From Ulvibacter litoralis (GTDB taxonomy: Bacteria; Bacteroidota; Bacteroidia; Flavobacteriales; Flavobacteriaceae), in assembly GCF_900102055.1 (NCBI RefSeq), contig NZ_FNBA01000002.1, positions 124,001 through 188,000 of the forward strand: a stretch of 64,000 bases of DNA, given 5' to 3'. Below the pieces are notes generated by a model, which was not told the DNA's origin, searched no databases, and saw only the letters and a list, made by a program, of their open reading frames with translations. Position numbers and translations under genes: made by a program. Shown here piece by piece: positions 24,997 to 35,659 of this stretch; the first letter of the stretch is position 1; each line of letters begins with the position of its first letter.

Positions 24997-25243
24997 AAAA
25001 ATCTTCATGTCATAAAAGAGATAAAAAAACAGTTTCATTTAATTGCGTAGGTTCAATAAATATTCCTCTTTGACTGCTGCAAAGGGCTATCTGCAAAGAG
25101 CAGCATTACATATAAATGTATTTAGTTCAATTTAAGAGCGTTTTTCCAACGTAAAACATAAAAAGACTGTAGGTTTTTTCTCGATTTCTAAATTTTAACA
25201 GAGAAATTTTATTAAATCCTTGGTTTTAACAAAATATTATACA
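24997..25243. other. Noncoding gap between kdgF and the susC promoter
   Basis: No gene seen. A possible hairpin lies at about 25070-25105, where TGCTGC and GCAGCA can pair and CTGCAAAG occurs twice. It may terminate the PL17-kdgF transcript, but no clear T run follows. Confidence 0.4.
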
Positions 25244-25251
25244 TATATTTG
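25220..25251 (+). promoter_or_regulatory. Promoter of susCD
   Basis: TTG at 25220-25222 and an exact TATATTTG at 25244-25251, 21 bp apart. The first operator overlaps the end of the -7 element. Confidence 0.68.
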
Positions 25252-25273
25252 GTTAACCAGATTGGTTTACCAA
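25249..25273. promoter_or_regulatory. Tandem GntR-type operators before susC
   Basis: TTGGTTAACCAG (25249-25260) and TTGGTTTACCAA (25262-25273), 13 bp between centres as at the PL6 and PL17 promoters. They cover the expected transcription start about 200 bp before the susC ATG. Confidence 0.82.
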
Positions 25274-25286
25274 TTTGATTGACAAA

Positions 25287-25314
25287 AAAAGAACAGATGC
25301 ACATCTGTTCTTTT
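25287..25314. promoter_or_regulatory. Perfect hairpin in the susC leader
   Basis: AAAAGAACAGATG and CATCTGTTCTTTT pair over 13 bp around a 2-nt centre (CA). The stem ends in TTTT followed by A-rich sequence. It lies within the first 60 nt of the predicted leader, so it could act as an attenuator or protect the 5' end. Confidence 0.6.
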
Positions 25315-25328
25315 AAAAAAAATACTTC

Positions 25329-25368
25329 TTTGGAGGGAAGTAATTATGTTATAAAAACATAACACTAC
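25329..25368 (+). promoter_or_regulatory. Leader element with GGAGGG and hairpin, copy 1 (susC)
   Basis: TTTGGAGGG (25329-25337) is followed 8 nt later by ATG-TTA-TAA, and TTATGTT (25344-25350) pairs with AACATAA (25356-25362). Nearly the same element precedes the MFS gene at 31132. A GGAGGG is unusual in a lineage that mostly initiates without Shine-Dalgarno pairing. Confidence 0.6.
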
Positions 25369-25456
25369 AAAAGTAAAGAAATAATTACAACTTATGTAAG
25401 ATTATGTTTTTAAGTGTTTAAAGGATATTAACTAACTAAAACTTAAAAAACTAATT

Positions 25457-28400
25457 ATGAATTTAAAAGCTAAGTCGGCATTAATAGCGATACTATTTAT
25501 TTGTATCACTTCTTTTGCCCAAGAAAACTTAACAGTGACAGGGCAGGTGGTCTCTACTACCGATTCAATGCCTCTGCCTGGAGTTAATGTCATTGTTGCA
25601 GGAACAAGTAACGGAGCAACTACTGATTTTGATGGTAATTATGAAATCACTGTAAGCAAGGGTGATGTTATTCAATATTCTTACATCGGGTTTGTAACGC
25701 AACTTATTCCTGTTGAAGACAAAACAATAATTAATGTGTCCTTGGTGGAAGATGCCAATGCATTAGACGAGGTTGTTGTTGTTGGTTATGGTACACGGAA
25801 AAAGAGTCATGTAACGGGTTCAATTGCAAAAGTTGGAGGAGAAGATGTAGCGGCGATTCAGGCAACACGTGTGGATGAAGCATTAGCTGGTAAATTAGCA
25901 GGTGTTTTAATTCAAAATCAAAATGGATCACCAGGAGCAGATCCTAAGATTCAAATAAGAGCTGCTTCTTCCATTAATGGAAATTCTAATCCGCTGATTG
26001 TGGTAGATGGGTATCCAATTTCGGGAAGTTTAGCTACTGTTAATCCTAACGATATTCAGAGTGTAGAAGTTTTGAAAGATGCTGCTTCAGCTGCTATTTA
26101 TGGTTCTAGAGGAGCAAATGGAGTAATTTTAGTTACTACCAAAAAAGGAAAAAGTGGTAAGCCAAGTTTTAGTTATAATACGTATGCGAGTGTTTCAAAC
26201 AAGTACAAAAGTGGTACTATAAATATGACAGCTGGCGAATGGGCAAACACATTAGAAGCCGGTATTGCTAGTGGGAGATATGATGTTTCAGAATTAGACC
26301 CAGCCTTTGTAAATTATAAAATAAACGCGTATAGAGATGCGCCTGATGTTTGGGCTGTAGAAGATTGGCTTTACGGGAGTGGTTATAGTACAAATCATGA
26401 CTTTAGCTATAGTGGTGGTTCGGATGATTCAAACTATTTTGCTTCAGTTGGTTATCAAAATACAGATGGTATTGTGAGAACTGAAGGATACGAAAGACTA
26501 AATGCGCGCTTAAATGTAGATACTGAACTAGGAGACAAATTTAAAACAGGAATAAGTTTTAATGGATTCGTAGCAGATAGACAAATTTTAGGACACGATC
26601 AGAGAGATCTTTTAAGAGCATATAATGTAAGTCCTATTTATCATACAGAAGCGTCTATTGCGTTTGTACAACAATTAGATCAACAAGCACAGGCTTTAGG
26701 GCTTGATCCATTTGATGATGGGTACAGAGGAGGTGATGCACCTTTTAATAATAGTATCTATACATTACAACCTGGCGATACAGCGCAAGATTGGCATTAT
26801 GGTAGAAGTGGTAATGGTATTGGAGGAACTGGAGATGCAGGTCCTGCAACCAAACTTGACAATACAGAAAGATATCAGAAAACTTTTTTCGGTAATGTAT
26901 CTACCTATTTACAATACACTATTATGGATGGCTTAAATATTAAAGCTGTTTTAGGAGCTGATGTAAGAGATACTAAAGATTACTTCTGGAGAGGACTTGA
27001 GTTTGATTCTAGAGCACGTGGTAATCAAACGGCCTTAGATGAGACGAACGTAAAACAAACCTCTACTCTGAGCGAAACTACATTGAATTATGCAAAAGAA
27101 ATTGGCAAGCATAGTGTGTCTGCCGTGGCTGGAGCTGAATTTCAAAAAATCTATTTTAAAGGCACCTCAACTAATGGTACAAACGTTCCATATAGCGACA
27201 TTGTAAATTATAACCTCTTAGAGCCTGAAGATATTATTGTTACTGAAAGAGACGAAACTATTACAAGATGGAGTATGTTTGGAAGAGTAAATTATGCTTT
27301 TGATGATCGTTATTTAGTGTCGGCATCGATACGAAGAGATGGAGATTCTCGTTTTGGATCTAATGAAAGATATGCGGTATTCCCAGCAATTTCTTTGGGA
27401 TGGAATGTGCATAACGAATCTTTTTATAATATAGAATTCATAAGTTTATTAAAACCAAGATTTAGTACGGGTTCTTTAGGATCTACTTCCGATTTAGGAG
27501 CATACAACTCATTAAGTCTTTTAAATCCTCAGCCAACGATATTAGGAACTGGTTTCCTTATTCCTGATGATATCGCAAACTCAGATTTAACATGGCAAAC
27601 CAATACAGAAACGAATTACGGAATTGATTTAGGTTTTGTAAACAACAGATTTAGATTTAGCGCAGATTATTATACGTCTGACATTGAAGATATCTTAATT
27701 AATCTAAGTGTTTCTGAAGTTTTCGGTGTTCCTTCTATTAGAGTGAATGCGGGAGATGTAAGAAGTTCTGGTTTGGAACTTGAATTAAGTGCAGCTATTA
27801 TTCGAAATGAGAATTTTAAATGGGATTTCGGAGGTAACTTATCTACAGTAAAAACAGAAATAACAGATTTAGGTGGATTAGATGAATTACCTCAATCAAT
27901 TTACGGACAAAGTGGTAGAGGTCCTGTGTTTAGAAATTATGTAGGAGGAGAGATTGGTGAAATGTGGGGATTAGAAACGATTGGACAAGTTGAAGATAAT
28001 TTCATTGAAGACCCAACGAGAGCAATAGGGCTTAACAGCTCAGCTTTTTATGTAAAAGATCAAAATGGTGATGGAGTAATTGATAAAACAAGAACTGTTG
28101 AAGAGGGTGGAGATTTAGTGAAAATAGGACAAAACACACCTGACTTTTATTATGGTTTCAATAGTTCTATAAGCTATAAATCTTTTGATGTGGCATTCCA
28201 AGTTCAAGGAGCTCAAGGAGGCGACGTTTGGAATGTGGATCCTATTTACTATAATTCAGAATTTGGTGGAAGATTACGTGATAGCTTTGACGCCGATAAC
28301 GATGGTATAGCTGATCATAATGGACAGTACTATTTAGATTCAAACAATCAATTAGATGCGCAGCTTCAAGATGCGTCATTCTTAGCCTTGAGAAACTTGA

Positions 28401-28636
28401 CGATAGGGTATACGCTTCAATCAGATTTAGTTAGTAGAGTAGGAATAAGTTCAGCAAGGGTTTATTTAGCATCCACTAATTTATTTTACATATGGGGAGA
28501 TGATTATACATCATTTAATCCAGAGGGTGTAGATACTTCTCAATCTAATTACTTAGGGCCTACTACTTATGGGGTTCAAATAGGAGCAAGTCCTATTGTT
28601 AGAAGCTTTACGTTCGGTTTTAATGTTAATTTTTAA
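25457..28636 (+). CDS. SusC-like TonB-dependent outer membrane transporter
   Basis: 1059 residues. Signal peptide ending at ITSFAQ, then a carboxypeptidase-D-like N-terminal domain (TVTGQVVSTTDSMPLPGVNV), the TonB box region ANALDEVVVVGYGTRKK (about 103-119), the plug (VDEALAGKLAGVLIQNQNG) and a 22-strand barrel ending in FTFGFNVNF. SusC proteins import oligosaccharides across the outer membrane with a SusD lid. Context points to alginate oligomers. It follows a leader of about 200 nt with operators, a hairpin and the GGAGGG element. Confidence 0.96.
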   Translation: MNLKAKSALIAILFICITSFAQENLTVTGQVVSTTDSMPLPGVNVIVAGTSNGATTDFDGNYEITVSKGDVIQYSYIGFVTQLIPVEDKTIINVSLVEDANALDEVVVVGYGTRKKSHVTGSIAKVGGEDVAAIQATRVDEALAGKLAGVLIQNQNGSPGADPKIQIRAASSINGNSNPLIVVDGYPISGSLATVNPNDIQSVEVLKDAASAAIYGSRGANGVILVTTKKGKSGKPSFSYNTYASVSNKYKSGTINMTAGEWANTLEAGIASGRYDVSELDPAFVNYKINAYRDAPDVWAVEDWLYGSGYSTNHDFSYSGGSDDSNYFASVGYQNTDGIVRTEGYERLNARLNVDTELGDKFKTGISFNGFVADRQILGHDQRDLLRAYNVSPIYHTEASIAFVQQLDQQAQALGLDPFDDGYRGGDAPFNNSIYTLQPGDTAQDWHYGRSGNGIGGTGDAGPATKLDNTERYQKTFFGNVSTYLQYTIMDGLNIKAVLGADVRDTKDYFWRGLEFDSRARGNQTALDETNVKQTSTLSETTLNYAKEIGKHSVSAVAGAEFQKIYFKGTSTNGTNVPYSDIVNYNLLEPEDIIVTERDETITRWSMFGRVNYAFDDRYLVSASIRRDGDSRFGSNERYAVFPAISLGWNVHNESFYNIEFISLLKPRFSTGSLGSTSDLGAYNSLSLLNPQPTILGTGFLIPDDIANSDLTWQTNTETNYGIDLGFVNNRFRFSADYYTSDIEDILINLSVSEVFGVPSIRVNAGDVRSSGLELELSAAIIRNENFKWDFGGNLSTVKTEITDLGGLDELPQSIYGQSGRGPVFRNYVGGEIGEMWGLETIGQVEDNFIEDPTRAIGLNSSAFYVKDQNGDGVIDKTRTVEEGGDLVKIGQNTPDFYYGFNSSISYKSFDVAFQVQGAQGGDVWNVDPIYYNSEFGGRLRDSFDADNDGIADHNGQYYLDSNNQLDAQLQDASFLALRNLTIGYTLQSDLVSRVGISSARVYLASTNLFYIWGDDYTSFNPEGVDTSQSNYLGPTTYGVQIGASPIVRSFTFGFNVNF

Positions 28637-28647
28637 TTAAAGGAAAG

Positions 28648-29967
28648 ATGAAAAAAGTATATATATTATTATTAGGAGCAATATTAGTAACCGCATCTTG
28701 TAGTACAGATTTAGATGAAGTTCCGCCAAATATTGCAAGTTCAGATTCTTTAACAGATTTTGAAGGAGTTTTAAATGCTGCTTATTACTATCAACTTGGC
28801 GCTGTTACACCTATGGCAGTAATGGGAGATTTTAGAGCAGATAATGCTTTAATGTTAGAGTCTCCATACACTGAATATGATCTTTATGGTCCTGGTTTAA
28901 CAGCAATGGAAGATCAGTTTTTTGGACCTTTTTATACAGCTTTATACAGATCAATATTAAGTACAAATAACGTAATTGAGAATTCAGAAGACCCTGTTCA
29001 AATTGGGGAGGCTAAATTTTTAAGAGCATTGTCTTATTTTAAATTAGTACAAGCTTTTGGAGATGTTACAGTAATTTTGACATCACCAGATATAGGTGAT
29101 ATTCCTACCTTCGATTTGAAGAGAAAACCAGTTAATGAAGTTTACAATAATGTAATCATTCCAGATTTACAAGACGCAATGAGTCTTTTAGATAATACAA
29201 GTGTAAACGGTAGAGCGTCAAGACTTGCTGCACAGGCTTTATTAGGTAAAGTATATGTGCACATGGGGAATTTTGCAAATGCTGCGACACAATTTCAAAC
29301 TTTTTTAAATAGTGCTGGAACAGCTGGAATTAGTTTAGAAACAGAGTATGCTGATGTTTTTGACTTAGCAAATATTGAGAATTCAGAAATAATTTACGCA
29401 ACTCAAATTTCTAGTTCAGTAATAGATGAGTATGGTTTTTCAGAATTTTGGGAATGGTACTTAGGACAAGATTCAAAGTCACCTGCACCATTAGATCCGG
29501 ATTTAATTAGTGCTTACGATGCTAGCCCTGGAGATTTAAGAAGAGCAGTAAATATTGATGAAACTGCTTTAAGATCTCCAAAATATCCACAATCTGGAGG
29601 ACCAGATCATGATTGGATAGAATTGCGATTAGCAGATGTAATTTTATTATATGCAGAAGCATTAAATGAGAATGGTTCTCCTGCAACAACAGTACTTCCT
29701 TTGTTAGATGATATTAGAGAGAGAGCAGGATTAGATGTATTAGATCCTACTATTATTAATACACAAACTTTAGTGAGAAAGGCAATACAAGATGAAAGAA
29801 GATTGGAGTTGGCTTTTGAAGGACATAGATGGTTTGATTTGGTAAGAACAGGAACTGTTGATTCTGAAATGGGGCAAACGATAAACCCTAATTATTATGT
29901 ATTCCCAATTCCAATTTCAGAGGTTCTTGTGAGTAATGGAGTTATTACTCAGAATCCTGGTTACTAA
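28648..29967 (+). CDS. SusD/RagB-like glycan-binding lipoprotein
   Basis: 439 residues. Lipoprotein signal with Cys in LVTASCSTDLDE. The SusD fold shows helical TPR-like parts (GEAKFLRALSYFKLVQAFGD near 126-146, RLAAQALLGKVYVHMG near 190) and the typical C-terminal signature DERRLELAFEGHRWFDLVRT (about 378). It caps the SusC barrel on the cell surface and captures alginate oligomers. It is 11 bp after susC. Confidence 0.95.
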   Translation: MKKVYILLLGAILVTASCSTDLDEVPPNIASSDSLTDFEGVLNAAYYYQLGAVTPMAVMGDFRADNALMLESPYTEYDLYGPGLTAMEDQFFGPFYTALYRSILSTNNVIENSEDPVQIGEAKFLRALSYFKLVQAFGDVTVILTSPDIGDIPTFDLKRKPVNEVYNNVIIPDLQDAMSLLDNTSVNGRASRLAAQALLGKVYVHMGNFANAATQFQTFLNSAGTAGISLETEYADVFDLANIENSEIIYATQISSSVIDEYGFSEFWEWYLGQDSKSPAPLDPDLISAYDASPGDLRRAVNIDETALRSPKYPQSGGPDHDWIELRLADVILLYAEALNENGSPATTVLPLLDDIRERAGLDVLDPTIINTQTLVRKAIQDERRLELAFEGHRWFDLVRTGTVDSEMGQTINPNYYVFPIPISEVLVSNGVITQNPGY

Positions 29968-30348
29968 TTTATTGTGTCTCATAACACTTTAGTAATGATT
30001 CTTGTGAACATACAAATGAAACAACGAAACTGTTTCAACTCTAAATAAAAGATTAAGGAGAAGAGACAAGAGGTGATTTGTTTAACTTATATAAAATTAA
30101 AATAGCATTTTTCAAAAAGACTGAAACTTATACGTAAAAAACTAAAACTCATACATTGTTTGTGTTTGTTTCAGTCTTAAGTTGAAAGTGTTTAATATAA
30201 GTAGAGTTTAAAGGTTAAAAAGGTACATATTGATAGTTTATTGAAAAAGTGAGAATATGTAAAGCTCCTTTTTTTCTGAAAGAGTTTGATAAAACTCTCT
30301 TTAAAGTTTCCTTTTTAAAAGATATGAGTTAATTTAGCACGATGTAAA
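29968..30348. other. Noncoding gap between susD and the gntR operator
   Basis: No gene seen. It holds an 11-bp inverted repeat, AAGACTGAAAC (30117-30127) and GTTTCAGTCTT (30168-30178), around a 40-nt loop, which may end the susCD transcript. A weak promoter for gntR (TAATTTAG, 30330-30337) lies at its right end. Confidence 0.45.
30117..30178. terminator. Inverted repeat, possible susCD terminator
   Basis: Perfect 11-bp arms as given for the gap, with a long A-rich loop and no strong T run. It could be a terminator or an mRNA 3'-end stabilising stem. Confidence 0.4.
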
Positions 30349-30360
30349 CTGGTTAACCAA
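30349..30360. promoter_or_regulatory. Single GntR-type operator before the regulator gene
   Basis: CTGGTTAACCAA matches TTGGTWWACCAA at 11 of 12 positions and ends 10 bp before the ATG at 30371. It lies 11 bp downstream of a possible -7 element (TAATTTAG at 30330). This suggests autoregulation. Confidence 0.7.
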
Positions 30361-30370
30361 TTATTAGCTT

Positions 30371-31072
30371 ATGAAATTAGACATGCGGACAAAGACTGAA
30401 AATTTTAGCGTTCAACAACATATTATAGCTAGCATACGGGATTTAATTAATTTAAAAAACCTTGAACCTGGCGATAAACTTCCGTCTGAACGTATGCTTT
30501 CTGAAAAATTTGAAGTCTCAAGAGGAAATGTTAGAGAAGCCATTCAAAAGCTAGAATTTTATGGTTTATTAGAGTCAATTCCGCAAAGTGGAACATTTGT
30601 AGCAAATATAGGAGTGATTGCTATGAATGGTATGATTGAAGATATTCTAGGGTTAGAAGATCCCGATTTTAAATCATTAGTTGAAACTAGAATATTATTA
30701 GAGCTTAAAACAGTTCGTTTGGCAGCTTTAAGAAGATCTCCTGATGACCTTGAAAAGATGAGAACAACCTTAGACGCCTATAATAAAAAAGTGTTGAATG
30801 GTGAAGATGCAGTACAGGAAGACTTGTTGTTTCACTTAGCGATAGCAAAAGCAAGTGGAAATAGTAGTATGAATACATTTATGCTAACCATCACGCCAGA
30901 AATTATCACAAATTTTGAAAAATATCATGTCTGTGATAAAACTTTAGATCAGAAGGTCATTAAAGAACACGAAGAAATATTTAATGCAATTAAAGATCAA
31001 AACCCACAGTTGGCAAAACAAAAAATGAAAGAACATTTTAGTGAATTGTATAAATATTGTTACAACGTTTAA
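30371..31072 (+). CDS. GntR family (FadR/FCD subfamily) regulator of the alginate locus
   Basis: 233 residues. N-terminal winged helix: LEPGDKLPSERMLSEKFEVS and RGNVREAIQKLEFYGLLES (about 32-75). The C-terminal FCD ligand domain (about 95-225) has VETRILLELKTVRLAAL, LLFHLAIAKASGN and VIKEHEEIFNAI, which carry the Asp/His metal-type positions of the family. Established: AusR of Zobellia galactanivorans is a GntR repressor of an alginate operon. Inference: this is its counterpart, binding TTGGTWWACCAA and released by a catabolic product such as KDG. Confidence 0.9.
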   Translation: MKLDMRTKTENFSVQQHIIASIRDLINLKNLEPGDKLPSERMLSEKFEVSRGNVREAIQKLEFYGLLESIPQSGTFVANIGVIAMNGMIEDILGLEDPDFKSLVETRILLELKTVRLAALRRSPDDLEKMRTTLDAYNKKVLNGEDAVQEDLLFHLAIAKASGNSSMNTFMLTITPEIITNFEKYHVCDKTLDQKVIKEHEEIFNAIKDQNPQLAKQKMKEHFSELYKYCYNV

Positions 31073-31131
31073 TAAAAATAAATACTAAATAAAGTGCACA
31101 ATTTATTTAGTAAATCAATCAAAATTTAAAA

Positions 31132-31176
31132 TTTGGAGGGAGAGTAATTATGTTTAAAACATACTACTCACCATAA
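31132..31176 (+). promoter_or_regulatory. Leader element with GGAGGG and hairpin, copy 2 (MFS)
   Basis: TTTGGAGGG (31132-31140), then ATG 9 nt later opening an 8-codon reading frame that ends at 31176. TATGTT (31149-31154) pairs with AACATA (31158-31163). It matches the susC leader element in order, spacing and most bases. Confidence 0.6.
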
Positions 31177-31180
31177 ATAA

Positions 31181-31217
31181 ATCAGTATTTCCAACACTGA
31201 TAGTAAAGGGAACTATC
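31181..31217 (+). promoter_or_regulatory. Two overlapping alternative hairpins in the MFS leader
   Basis: ATCAGT (31181-31186) can pair with ACTGAT (31196-31201), while GATAGT (31199-31204) can pair with ACTATC (31212-31217). The two stems share the bases GAT at 31199-31201, so they exclude each other. Confidence 0.45.
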
Positions 31218-31249
31218 AAATTGTTTTCTTTTAAATAGTAAAAAAACAT

Positions 31250-32524
31250 ATGAAAGTAAAAGGACTTAGATGGTGGGTAATTGCGTTAATTTGTCTAGCG
31301 ACTGTAATCAATTATATTGATCGAACTGCATTTGGAGTAATGTGGCCAGAAATGGGAAAAGACTTAGGAATGGACGAGTCTGACTATGCAATTATGCTGA
31401 ATGTCTTCATGATTACCTATGCAGCCGGAAAGTTCCTTTCAGGCAAATTATACGATATTATAGGAACTCGTTTTGGGTTTGTAGTTTCAATTGTTGTCTG
31501 GTCTGTGGCTTCTATATTCCATGCATTCTCAAGAGGCTTATTATCATTAACCTTTTTTAGAGCACTTCTTGGTTTAGGAGAAGCAGGTAATTGGCCTGGA
31601 GCAGTGAAGAGTAATGGTGAATGGTTTCCAGTTAAACAACGGGCAATCGCCCAAGGTATTTTTAACGCTGGGGCTTCTTTAGGAAGTGTTATTGCTCCTG
31701 TATTAATTGCCTATTTATATGGTCACTTTGGATGGAGAACAACTTATATTATCATTGGAGCAGTTGGTATTCTTTGGGTAATTCCTTGGTTATTTATCAA
31801 CAAAGCAAAACCAGAAAAGCATCCTTGGATTACTGAAAAAGAACGAAATGTAATTCTATCTAGTCGTATTAGCAAAGAAGATGATACTAAAAAAGTCAAA
31901 GGACTTAGTGTATTTAAAATTTTAAGTTTTAAAGAAGCATGGGGAGTTTTAGCATCACGATTTTTTATTGAACCAATTTGGTGGTTGTTTGTAGGTTGGA
32001 TGCCTTTATACCTTCATTCTAAATTTAACTTTAGTATCGCTGAAATTGGATCTACCATTTGGATCTCTTACTTAGGAGGTATGGCAGGAAGTCTTTTAGG
32101 AGGATGGTATTGCGGTAAATTAATGGAAACAAAATCGGTTGATATCGCACGTAAAATAACGATTGCAATTGGAGGGTCATTAATCTTTTTAGGATTATTA
32201 GGAATTATATTCCTAGTCAATGAAAACAATCCAATGACCTTTATTTATATAGTTGGAGTTGTACTTTTTGGATTTCAGTTCGCAATCGGAAACATTCAAA
32301 CAATTTCAAGCGATTTATTTAGAGGACCGTCAGTAGGAACTTTAGCAGGATTAGCTGGAAGTGTAGGAGCAGTTTCAGTAATTATAATGAACTGGTTAAT
32401 ACCAAAAATAACAATAAGTTCTTACACACCAGCATTCATAATAATAGCAGTATTAGCACCATTAGCTGTATTGTCAATTTTCGGATTGATTAGAAAAATA
32501 GAACCAGTTGAAAATAAAAAATAA
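31250..32524 (+). CDS. MFS transporter, ExuT-like (anion:cation symporter family), likely uronate importer
   Basis: 424 residues, 12 membrane segments. N-terminal signature RWWVIALICLATVINYIDRT, then GLGEAGNWPGAVKSNGEWFP (about 108-127) and GWRTTYIIIGAVGILWVIPW, all typical of hexuronate/glucarate carriers of the ACS family. It should move DEH or another monouronate across the inner membrane. It is 177 bp downstream of gntR behind a structured leader and 19 bp before the SDR gene. Confidence 0.9.
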   Translation: MKVKGLRWWVIALICLATVINYIDRTAFGVMWPEMGKDLGMDESDYAIMLNVFMITYAAGKFLSGKLYDIIGTRFGFVVSIVVWSVASIFHAFSRGLLSLTFFRALLGLGEAGNWPGAVKSNGEWFPVKQRAIAQGIFNAGASLGSVIAPVLIAYLYGHFGWRTTYIIIGAVGILWVIPWLFINKAKPEKHPWITEKERNVILSSRISKEDDTKKVKGLSVFKILSFKEAWGVLASRFFIEPIWWLFVGWMPLYLHSKFNFSIAEIGSTIWISYLGGMAGSLLGGWYCGKLMETKSVDIARKITIAIGGSLIFLGLLGIIFLVNENNPMTFIYIVGVVLFGFQFAIGNIQTISSDLFRGPSVGTLAGLAGSVGAVSVIIMNWLIPKITISSYTPAFIIIAVLAPLAVLSIFGLIRKIEPVENKK

Positions 32525-34475: not shown

Positions 34476-35144
34476 ATGGCACAATACTCAAGGATAGAAG
34501 TTGTAACAGTAATGCAGAAAACAGGACTAGTTCCATTATTTTACGATAGTGATATAGATACCTGCAAACACGTTTTAAAAGCATGTTACAATGGTGGCGC
34601 AAGGCTTATGGAGTTTACAGCTCGCGGAGATTTTGCACACGAAATATTTGGAGCACTTAATAAGTATGCTTTAAAAGAATTACCAGGAATGATTCTTGGA
34701 GTTGGTTCTGTTACAGATGCTGCTTCTGCTTCATTATTTATGGCATTAGGAGCAAACTTTATTGTAACTCCAGTGTTTAGAGAAGATATTGCAGTAGTAT
34801 GTAATAGACGAAAAGTACTTTGGTCACCGGGTTGTGGTTCTCTTTCTGAAATTGCGAAAGCTGAAGAACTAGGTTGCGAACTCGTTAAATTATTCCCAGG
34901 AGGGATCTATGGACCAAATTTCATTAAAGCTATAAAAGGGCCTCAACCTTGGACAAGTATCATGCCTACGGGTGGAGTTTCTCCAACTAAAGAAAACCTT
35001 AAAGGTTGGTTTGAAGCAGGTGCAACGTGCGTTGGAATCGGTTCAAAACTAATTAGCAAAGATGAAAATGGAGCATATGACTTTAAAGCGATTGAATTGC
35101 TTTCAAAAGAGGCAATAGCGATCATCAAAGAACTTAAATCATGA
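34476..35144 (+). CDS. eda: KDPG aldolase (bifunctional KDPG/KHG type)
   Basis: 222 residues, TIM barrel. Seen: LVPLFYDSDID near the start, the Glu region GARLMEFTARGD (about 43-54), ILGVGSVTDA, and the Schiff-base Lys in ELVKLFPGGIYGP (about 135). IMPTGGVSP follows. It splits KDPG into pyruvate and glyceraldehyde-3-phosphate, the last step of the alginate route here. The stop overlaps the LacI-type gene start by 4 bp (ATGA at 35141). Confidence 0.94.
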   Translation: MAQYSRIEVVTVMQKTGLVPLFYDSDIDTCKHVLKACYNGGARLMEFTARGDFAHEIFGALNKYALKELPGMILGVGSVTDAASASLFMALGANFIVTPVFREDIAVVCNRRKVLWSPGCGSLSEIAKAEELGCELVKLFPGGIYGPNFIKAIKGPQPWTSIMPTGGVSPTKENLKGWFEAGATCVGIGSKLISKDENGAYDFKAIELLSKEAIAIIKELKS

Positions 35145-35659
35145 ATAGTCTAGAATCTATAATAACTTTAAAAGAGTTGTCATTTTTATCGGGCTACTCT
35201 GTGTCTACGGTATCTAAAGCGTTAAATAATAAGCTTGATATTAGTACAAACACAAGAAGAATTATTAAAGATATCGCCGAAAAACACAACTATATTCCTA
35301 ATAAACATGCTGTTGGGTTAAGAAAGAAAAGAGCGCAAGCTTTAGCAGTAATAATTCCGCAAGCAAATACAAATCATTACAGTTGGTTTCTGTTTAATAT
35401 AGAAAAACTAGCAACTAGTAATGGCTATAAAATTGTGTTGTACCAGTCTTTTGAATCTCCATCAAAAGAAATGGAATGTATAAAAAATAGTAATGACGGT
35501 AGTGTCGATGGTGTAATTCTGCTCTCTAGAAATAAACCTCAAATTAATAACTATAGTCACCCCATTGAATACCTTCAAATCACTGAAGATCAATCGGAAG
35601 AGCAAATACAGAGATATTGTGTGACTAGTTTTAATGCATTGTTGAAAAATATCGCTTAA
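35141..35659 (+). CDS. Half-length LacI family protein
   Basis: 172 residues against about 340 for LacI family members. The HTH is intact: LKELSFLSGYSVSTVSKALN near 10-30, the hinge helix follows (NKHAVGLRKKRAQALAVIIP), and the first part of the sugar-binding domain is present (GYKIVLYQSFESPSKEMEC, DGVILLS). It then ends at TAA, and no remainder of the domain is found in any frame before the next gene 28 bp on. It may be a genuine short regulator, or a truncated one kept by coupling to eda. Confidence 0.8.
   Translation: MNSLESIITLKELSFLSGYSVSTVSKALNNKLDISTNTRRIIKDIAEKHNYIPNKHAVGLRKKRAQALAVIIPQANTNHYSWFLFNIEKLATSNGYKIVLYQSFESPSKEMECIKNSNDGSVDGVILLSRNKPQINNYSHPIEYLQITEDQSEEQIQRYCVTSFNALLKNIA

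Follow-up and report, generated by a model that had tools for sequence, protein, structure and literature searches.

A predicted antisense small RNA at susC and its coevolving partner site in the gntR-MFS spacer of flavobacterial alginate loci

The window, by which we mean the whole stretch of 64,000 nucleotides analysed here, carries a flavobacterial alginate utilization locus with PL7 and PL17 lyases, a cupin, SusC, SusD, a GntR regulator, an MFS transporter, an SDR, KdgK and KdgA. Among these names, those of SusC and the aldolase were assigned above curated cut-offs, and the others come from weaker matches or from gene order. A LacI-family gene of only 172 amino acids, shorter than the models that it matched, is located at 35141-35659. 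Relatives of the locus were gathered via GntR, which was found at E <=1e-50 in 102 of the 397 genomes of the family, and comprise 80 named loci and 60 further stretches. Identical sequences were counted once, and L087 and L146 (susC) and L021 (MFS), being false or misplaced pattern hits, were left out of several counts, including those of the T-run and of the -7 box. The features discussed below are the following (positions in the window; a dot marks features without strand).

25244-25251, plus strand: probable -7 box of the susC promoter, TATATTTG, read from the sequence, with a start predicted near 25256
25250-25272, dot: probable GntR operators formed by two palindromes, TGGTTAACCA and TGGTTTACCA, from TGGTnnACCA upstream of susC in relatives
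25284-25363, minus strand: predicted antisense sRNA of 80 nt, with a 5' hairpin, a seed hairpin (loop CCUCCAAA), a terminator hairpin and U7; from alignment A2, ends predicted
25287-25314, minus strand: terminator hairpin, P1 of the predicted sRNA, with loop UGUGCA on the minus strand; from sequence, fold and stem wobbles
25324-25341, minus strand: seed hairpin P2, ACTTC-TTTGGAGG-GAAGT on the plus strand and loop CCUCCAAA on the minus strand; from sequence, alignment and fold
25368-25375, minus strand: predicted -7 box of the sRNA promoter, TACTTTTG (TAnnTTTG), read from the sequence and from counts in relatives
30350-30359, dot: probable operator upstream of gntR, from TGGTnnACCA
31083-31112, plus strand: MFS-side hairpin in the gntR-MFS spacer, with loop UGCACA at 31095-31100; from sequence, covariation and a spacer test
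31132-31154, plus strand: seed site on the MFS side, TTTGGAGGGAGAGTAATTATGTT, with complementarity to the seed of the sRNA and, in this lineage, also to its 5' hairpin

The earlier note had described a GGAGGG element common to the leaders of susC and of the MFS gene, and the shared words are indeed present, TTTGGAGGGA at 25329-25338 and 31132-31141 and GTAATTATGTT at 25340 and 31144. Within the window, each exact word is confined to its two places. When one mismatch is allowed, each word taken singly is unremarkable, the two giving 8 matches (as many in 8 of 100 shuffles) and 7 matches (7 of 100). The joint pattern TTTGGAGGGA-N0-4-GTAATTATG has 2 matches genome-wide; neither the other strand nor a backwards control gave any, and the other three genomes of the genus examined had none either. 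A search of positions 25000-31400 against Rfam, on both strands at E <=1, returned nothing above threshold, the only hit being STnc50 with 24.6 bits against 55. The motif is genuinely shared, yet the two copies do not represent a single leader element in two places.

The element is larger than first described. In relatives, the susC leaders contain a hairpin with the loop UGCACR followed by ACTTC-TTTGGAGG-GAAGT, and the gntR-MFS spacers a hairpin with the same UGCACR loop followed by GGAGGG. In an alignment of 59 copies, partly chosen for pairing, all 8 pairs of this hairpin (P1) vary on both sides, 93.4% of the cells are paired, and 149 cells are changed on both sides, against 40 in shuffles. 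Because these copies had been chosen with a pairing rule, the analysis was repeated without any such rule; 44 of 59 spacer sites then had at least 6 of the 8 P1 pairs, and a shifted control gave 5 of 59. The hairpin whose covariation is informative is this upstream P1, with its loop UGCACR, and not the one that the earlier note had named.

Further copies and covariation in related genomes, on which the earlier note had made its idea depend, were both found, P1 covarying and the covariance model R1 matching at E <=1e-3 in 62 of 397 family genomes, with at most 14 candidates scored per genome. Two matches were obtained in 43 of these genomes, one in 18 and three in 1, and all 62 fall among the 102 with GntR. 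Model R2, built for the minus-strand RNA, gave 83 matches in 81 genomes at E <=1e-5, and 79 of these genomes are among the 102. At weaker E-values the R2 matches resemble ordinary terminators, with 215 genomes reaching E 0.01. Two strong R2 matches per genome occur in G238 and G250. At L174 (G029) there are two susC genes with a TTTCGAGGGAAG copy upstream of each, and the MFS gene was not found in that stretch.

The susC-side copy is well supported as the complement of a predicted minus-strand sRNA of about 80 nt with a -7 box, three hairpins, a terminator and a U-run. In the window, the predicted 80-nt RNA folds into three hairpins with an MFE of -22.1 kcal/mol. A minus-strand T-run of at least 4 follows the first hairpin in 43 of 48 susC copies against 1 of 55 MFS copies. 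The word TAnnTTTG, given as the sigma-A -7 box consensus in F. psychrophilum (PMC9723704), stands upstream in 35 of 48 susC copies when the minus strand is read (shuffle mean 3.4, maximum 9), against 3 of 55 MFS copies, and the plus strand of the same stretch has none. The wobble pairs were also counted: the P1 stems on the susC side have 36 A.C pairs as read on the plus strand, which are G.U on the minus strand, against 1 G.T, and those on the MFS side have 5 A.C against 37 G.T, plus 36 other mismatches, the MFS sequences having been preselected for at least 5 of 8 pairs by a rule that counts G.T but not A.C, which biases the counts towards the MFS result and away from the susC one. These counts assign the susC-side structure to a minus-strand RNA and the MFS-side structure to a plus-strand RNA. 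Since the susC-side structure belongs to the minus strand, the idea of a single sense-strand leader motif of two transporter genes is not supported. Among 33 aligned sRNA genes, 5 of the 11 pairs of the terminator helix show changes on both sides, and the seed helix, whose stem was demanded by the search pattern, hardly varies. Likewise, the seed stem of R2, which is 99% paired, provides no evidence, because the pattern that found its sequences required that stem.

The palindrome TGGTnnACCA, the probable GntR operator, occurs in the window at 25250, 25263, 30350, 22299 and 22312. Every one of 97 loci has it upstream of susC, against a shuffle mean of 0.3. Upstream of gntR it is present in 79 of 137 stretches, so that it is not universal there, and upstream of PL17 in 14 of 34 loci. 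Upstream of MFS it was found in only 4 of 130. A plus-strand -7 box was found in none of the 66 spacers with the site (shuffle mean 8.4), and together with the few operators before MFS this suggests that MFS is read through from gntR, which would make the site intercistronic.

The MFS-side copy is well supported as the pairing partner of the predicted sRNA, and the option of an sRNA target, one of several raised by the earlier note, is the best reading of this copy. In the predicted pairing, the UGCACR loop faces the terminator loop YGUGCA of the sRNA, and GGAGGGAAG faces the seed CUUCCCUCC. For the window, the cofold of the sRNA with the MFS-side site has an energy of -58.5 kcal/mol, against -41.2 kcal/mol for the two apart. 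The seed site follows the gntR stop by a median of 65 nt and precedes the start of MFS by 158 nt, too far away to cover that start.

The presence of the spacer site follows the type of sRNA found at susC. Among 109 loci, the MFS site is present in 49 of 49 with a cognate-loop sRNA, in 1 of 26 with an sRNA of another loop and in 2 of 34 in which no sRNA was found. The site is absent from 57 of the 60 non-cognate loci, and the three exceptions (L109, L165 and L193) do carry an sRNA, which the pattern had missed. An earlier count of 76 loci without the stem rule gave 50 of 51 against 2 of 25 (Fisher 4e-16, ignoring relatedness and including a few chance hits), and the same contingency under the strict stem rule gave 42 and 13 against 1 and 20. 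The longest word shared by seed and spacer averaged 9.58 nt in cognate and 8.31 nt in non-cognate combinations, a value reached in 0 of 5000 permutations, with relatedness ignored.

The two copies change in concert. In counts drawn from related genomes, the loop position R is the same in both copies of 46 of 47 genomes, with 8-9 changes on the GntR tree and L054 discordant, and position x2 (GGAGGG or GAAGGG) is the same in 47 of 47, with 5 changes (46 of 47 without the correction of L173, which was set by hand, the pattern having taken the wrong frame). Position x1, scored as G or not G, agrees in 45 of 47 genomes, with 3-5 changes on the GntR tree; it is discordant at L157 and L168. L166 and L180 have lost G on both sides, but to different letters. 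For independent pairs on well supported branches of a tree of GntR and SDR, the latter taken from 30 of the 47 genomes, concordance was 4 of 4 for loop R and 2 of 2 for x2. Pooled, the 6 of 6 give 0.03 in a two-sided sign test by our own arithmetic, and neither position alone reaches 0.05, as there are too few independent pairs per position.

Individual genomes illustrate these changes. L109, which was in the sample before the model was formed, has UGUACG in both copies. For the G-numbered genomes the missing halves were fetched after the model had been formed, and some share a genus, so that not all are independent. G267 has UACACG in the spacer and on the sRNA side, G389 has CGCACA on the sRNA side and in the spacer, and G308, G238, G383 and G014 have GAAGGG in both copies. 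G262, G037, G127 and G393 show the common state in both copies and add little information. G142 is discordant, with GGAGGA in the MFS spacer against GGAGGG, and in G287, whose sRNA loop is UGCUCG, the site is absent from the 330 nt past that gntR. In addition, L152 has kept the sRNA loop and lost the spacer loop, and L154 and L178 have kept the AGGG seed and have no spacer site.

Conservation of the loops is limited to loci with the spacer site; the stems, the T-run and often the -7 box persist without it. sRNA genes with drifted loops and no spacer site were seen in Oceanihabitans, Olleya, Dokdonia, Tenacibaculum, Psychroserpens and some Lacinutrix (L033, L036, L057, L064, L071, L107 and others). 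New partners for the drifted loops were sought within their own loci, and no convincing site was found there. We read this pattern as a cis antisense function that would be free of the loops and a trans function that would need them.

The two sites, their strands, the anatomy of the sRNA and the coevolution are supported by computation; that the predicted sRNA is made, and what its pairing does, we infer. It is very probable, in our judgement, that a minus-strand sRNA gene lies between the susC promoter and susC, and that its product is antisense to the leader in cis and pairs in trans with the gntR-MFS spacer. The sRNA would be fully antisense to the predicted susC leader, and in trans it would contact the spacer through the loop-loop pairing UGCACR/YGUGCA and the seed pairing GGAGGGAAG/CUUCCCUCC. 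Most likely, when alginate is lacking, the GntR repressor would limit expression of its own operon and of susC, and the sRNA would hold down stray susC message. When the repressor is released, the gntR-MFS spacer and the susC leader would both pair with the sRNA and deplete it, and the outer and inner uptake steps would be switched together, similarly to the titration of ChiX by the chbBC spacer. The direction of the effect is fixed by no sequence feature.

Two uses of the same sRNA and pairing come into question for the spacer. A trap like that of chbBC seems to fit the distance of the site best, and control of the gntR-MFS message appears nearly as likely. We tentatively favour the trap, with the sRNA tying together susC and gntR-MFS uptake, the spacer, with which its two loops would stay in register, serving as a regulated sponge and each message freeing the other from the sRNA; where the spacer site is missing, a cis-only sRNA would be left and its loops would drift. 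If this is true, PUL antisense RNAs in general may have hidden trans partners. It is also quite possible, though rather doubtful, that the gntR-MFS message is itself the target, being cut, destabilized or terminated past the gntR stop, which would uncouple gntR from MFS and the catabolic genes. The short distance of the site from the gntR stop (median 65 nt) would suit such a role, and the flavobacterial Rfp18, whose predicted pairing site is intergenic, is reported to uncouple two operon genes (PMC9723704). Hairpins resembling terminators, followed by a T-run, were seen by eye between the site and the MFS start at L035, L092 and L100; they would agree with targeting or attenuation rather than with a trap, but by eye they are not general among the spacers, and attenuation before MFS was set aside because they occur in few leaders only. 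Moreover, the site is kept before MFS proteins that are 44 to 100% similar to that of the window, so that no particular downstream gene is favoured.

Explanations without this sRNA fare far worse. A third RNA encoded elsewhere and pairing with both sites is very unlikely: concerted change would follow from it too, but it leaves unexplained why a minus-strand terminator and promoter occur at susC only. Own-genome searches for CCCTCC and GTGCA no more than 30 nt apart, whichever came first, gave 13 places, namely the element's antisense and 12 in open frames (L203 near a frame end). In the element-bearing loci, most of which span 12 to 19 kb, the candidate that is conserved is again the elements' own antisense. 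A trans sRNA from elsewhere was thus rejected, none being found outside open frames, at this spacing in the own-genome searches or in the locus scan, except the elements' own antisense. A sense-strand element in both messages, either a riboswitch or a protein site, would account for the location of both sites in transcribed leaders or spacers, for the covariation of P1 and for the conserved loops; the wobbles, the T-run and the -7 box place the susC-side structure on the minus strand, however, the loops change in concert between the copies, and an Rfam match above threshold is absent. We regard it as highly unlikely, and a sense-strand leader or riboswitch shared by susC and MFS was rejected on the strand evidence. 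That GGAGGG serves as the Shine-Dalgarno site of tiny leader peptides is extremely unlikely. The ATGs that the earlier note placed 8 and 9 nt past GGAGGG, opening frames of 2 and 8 codons, can be read in the window, but the frames are not conserved, an ATG 5-12 nt after GGAGGG being present in only 14 of 48 susC-side and 5 of 55 MFS-side distinct copies; this led us to discard the Shine-Dalgarno reading. Besides, GAAGGG replaces GGAGGG in both copies of several genomes, which is not explained by pairing with the invariant rRNA end. Finally, the chance that the GntR repressor uses the shared block as a DNA operator is negligible. GntR is encoded between the two sites, but TGGTnnACCA, found before susC in every locus counted and seldom before MFS, is the better candidate, GGAGG lies in the non-palindromic middle of the repeat, and the stems keep G.U pairs; the block was rejected as an operator in favour of that palindrome.

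Several known systems resemble parts of this arrangement. In E. coli, the chbBC spacer acts as a trap for the ChiX sRNA (PMC7815308). The likeness lies in the spacer of an uptake operon that is complementary to an sRNA, here a predicted one with which it coevolves, and titration in the present case is drawn by analogy. To our knowledge, ChiX and chiP do not form a cis-antisense pair, and we know of no relation between its sequence and that of the sRNA described here. Rfp18 of Flavobacterium psychrophilum is likewise a flavobacterial sRNA with predicted pairing in the intergenic region of an operon, but it targets metalloproteases and, in the available part of that report, is not described as antisense to susC (PMC9723704). 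At the protein level, AusR of Zobellia galactanivorans is a GntR-family repressor of most alginate-utilising genes, which the GntR of the window resembles by family and locus only, and the accessible portion of the review makes no mention of an RNA layer (PMC8286568). RNA in flavobacterial alginate loci is announced in none of the titles or abstract openings of the literature searched, which is not proof that it is unpublished.

The closest likeness is to the DonS family of Bacteroides, RNAs of 78-128 nt that are divergently encoded and antisense to PUL susC homologues, whose expression they are reported to lower (PMC7366714). B. thetaiotaomicron has 32 annotated PUL-associated antisense RNAs that need functional study, and how such RNAs of gut Bacteroides work is described as largely open (PMC10994844). 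The sRNA predicted here is also short, with 80 nt in the same size range, its own -7 box and terminator, and lies opposite to and within the predicted susC leader, an arrangement that is the same in relatives; at L118/L176 (G104), susC was not found downstream. It differs from DonS in belonging to a marine alginate locus and in having conserved loops and, in the gntR-MFS spacer, a second partner whose letters change together with its own. A trans partner of PUL antisense RNAs is not mentioned in the available parts of the literature on them (PMC7366714, PMC10994844). By comparative genomics, one predicted PUL antisense RNA of marine alginate degraders gains a second, coevolving partner in the same locus, which makes the function of PUL antisense RNAs testable by compensatory changes, in a system for the uptake of a main brown-algal polysaccharide. 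By its position, the predicted sRNA is a DonS-like antisense RNA of susC, and the new part is its coevolving partner in the gntR-MFS spacer.
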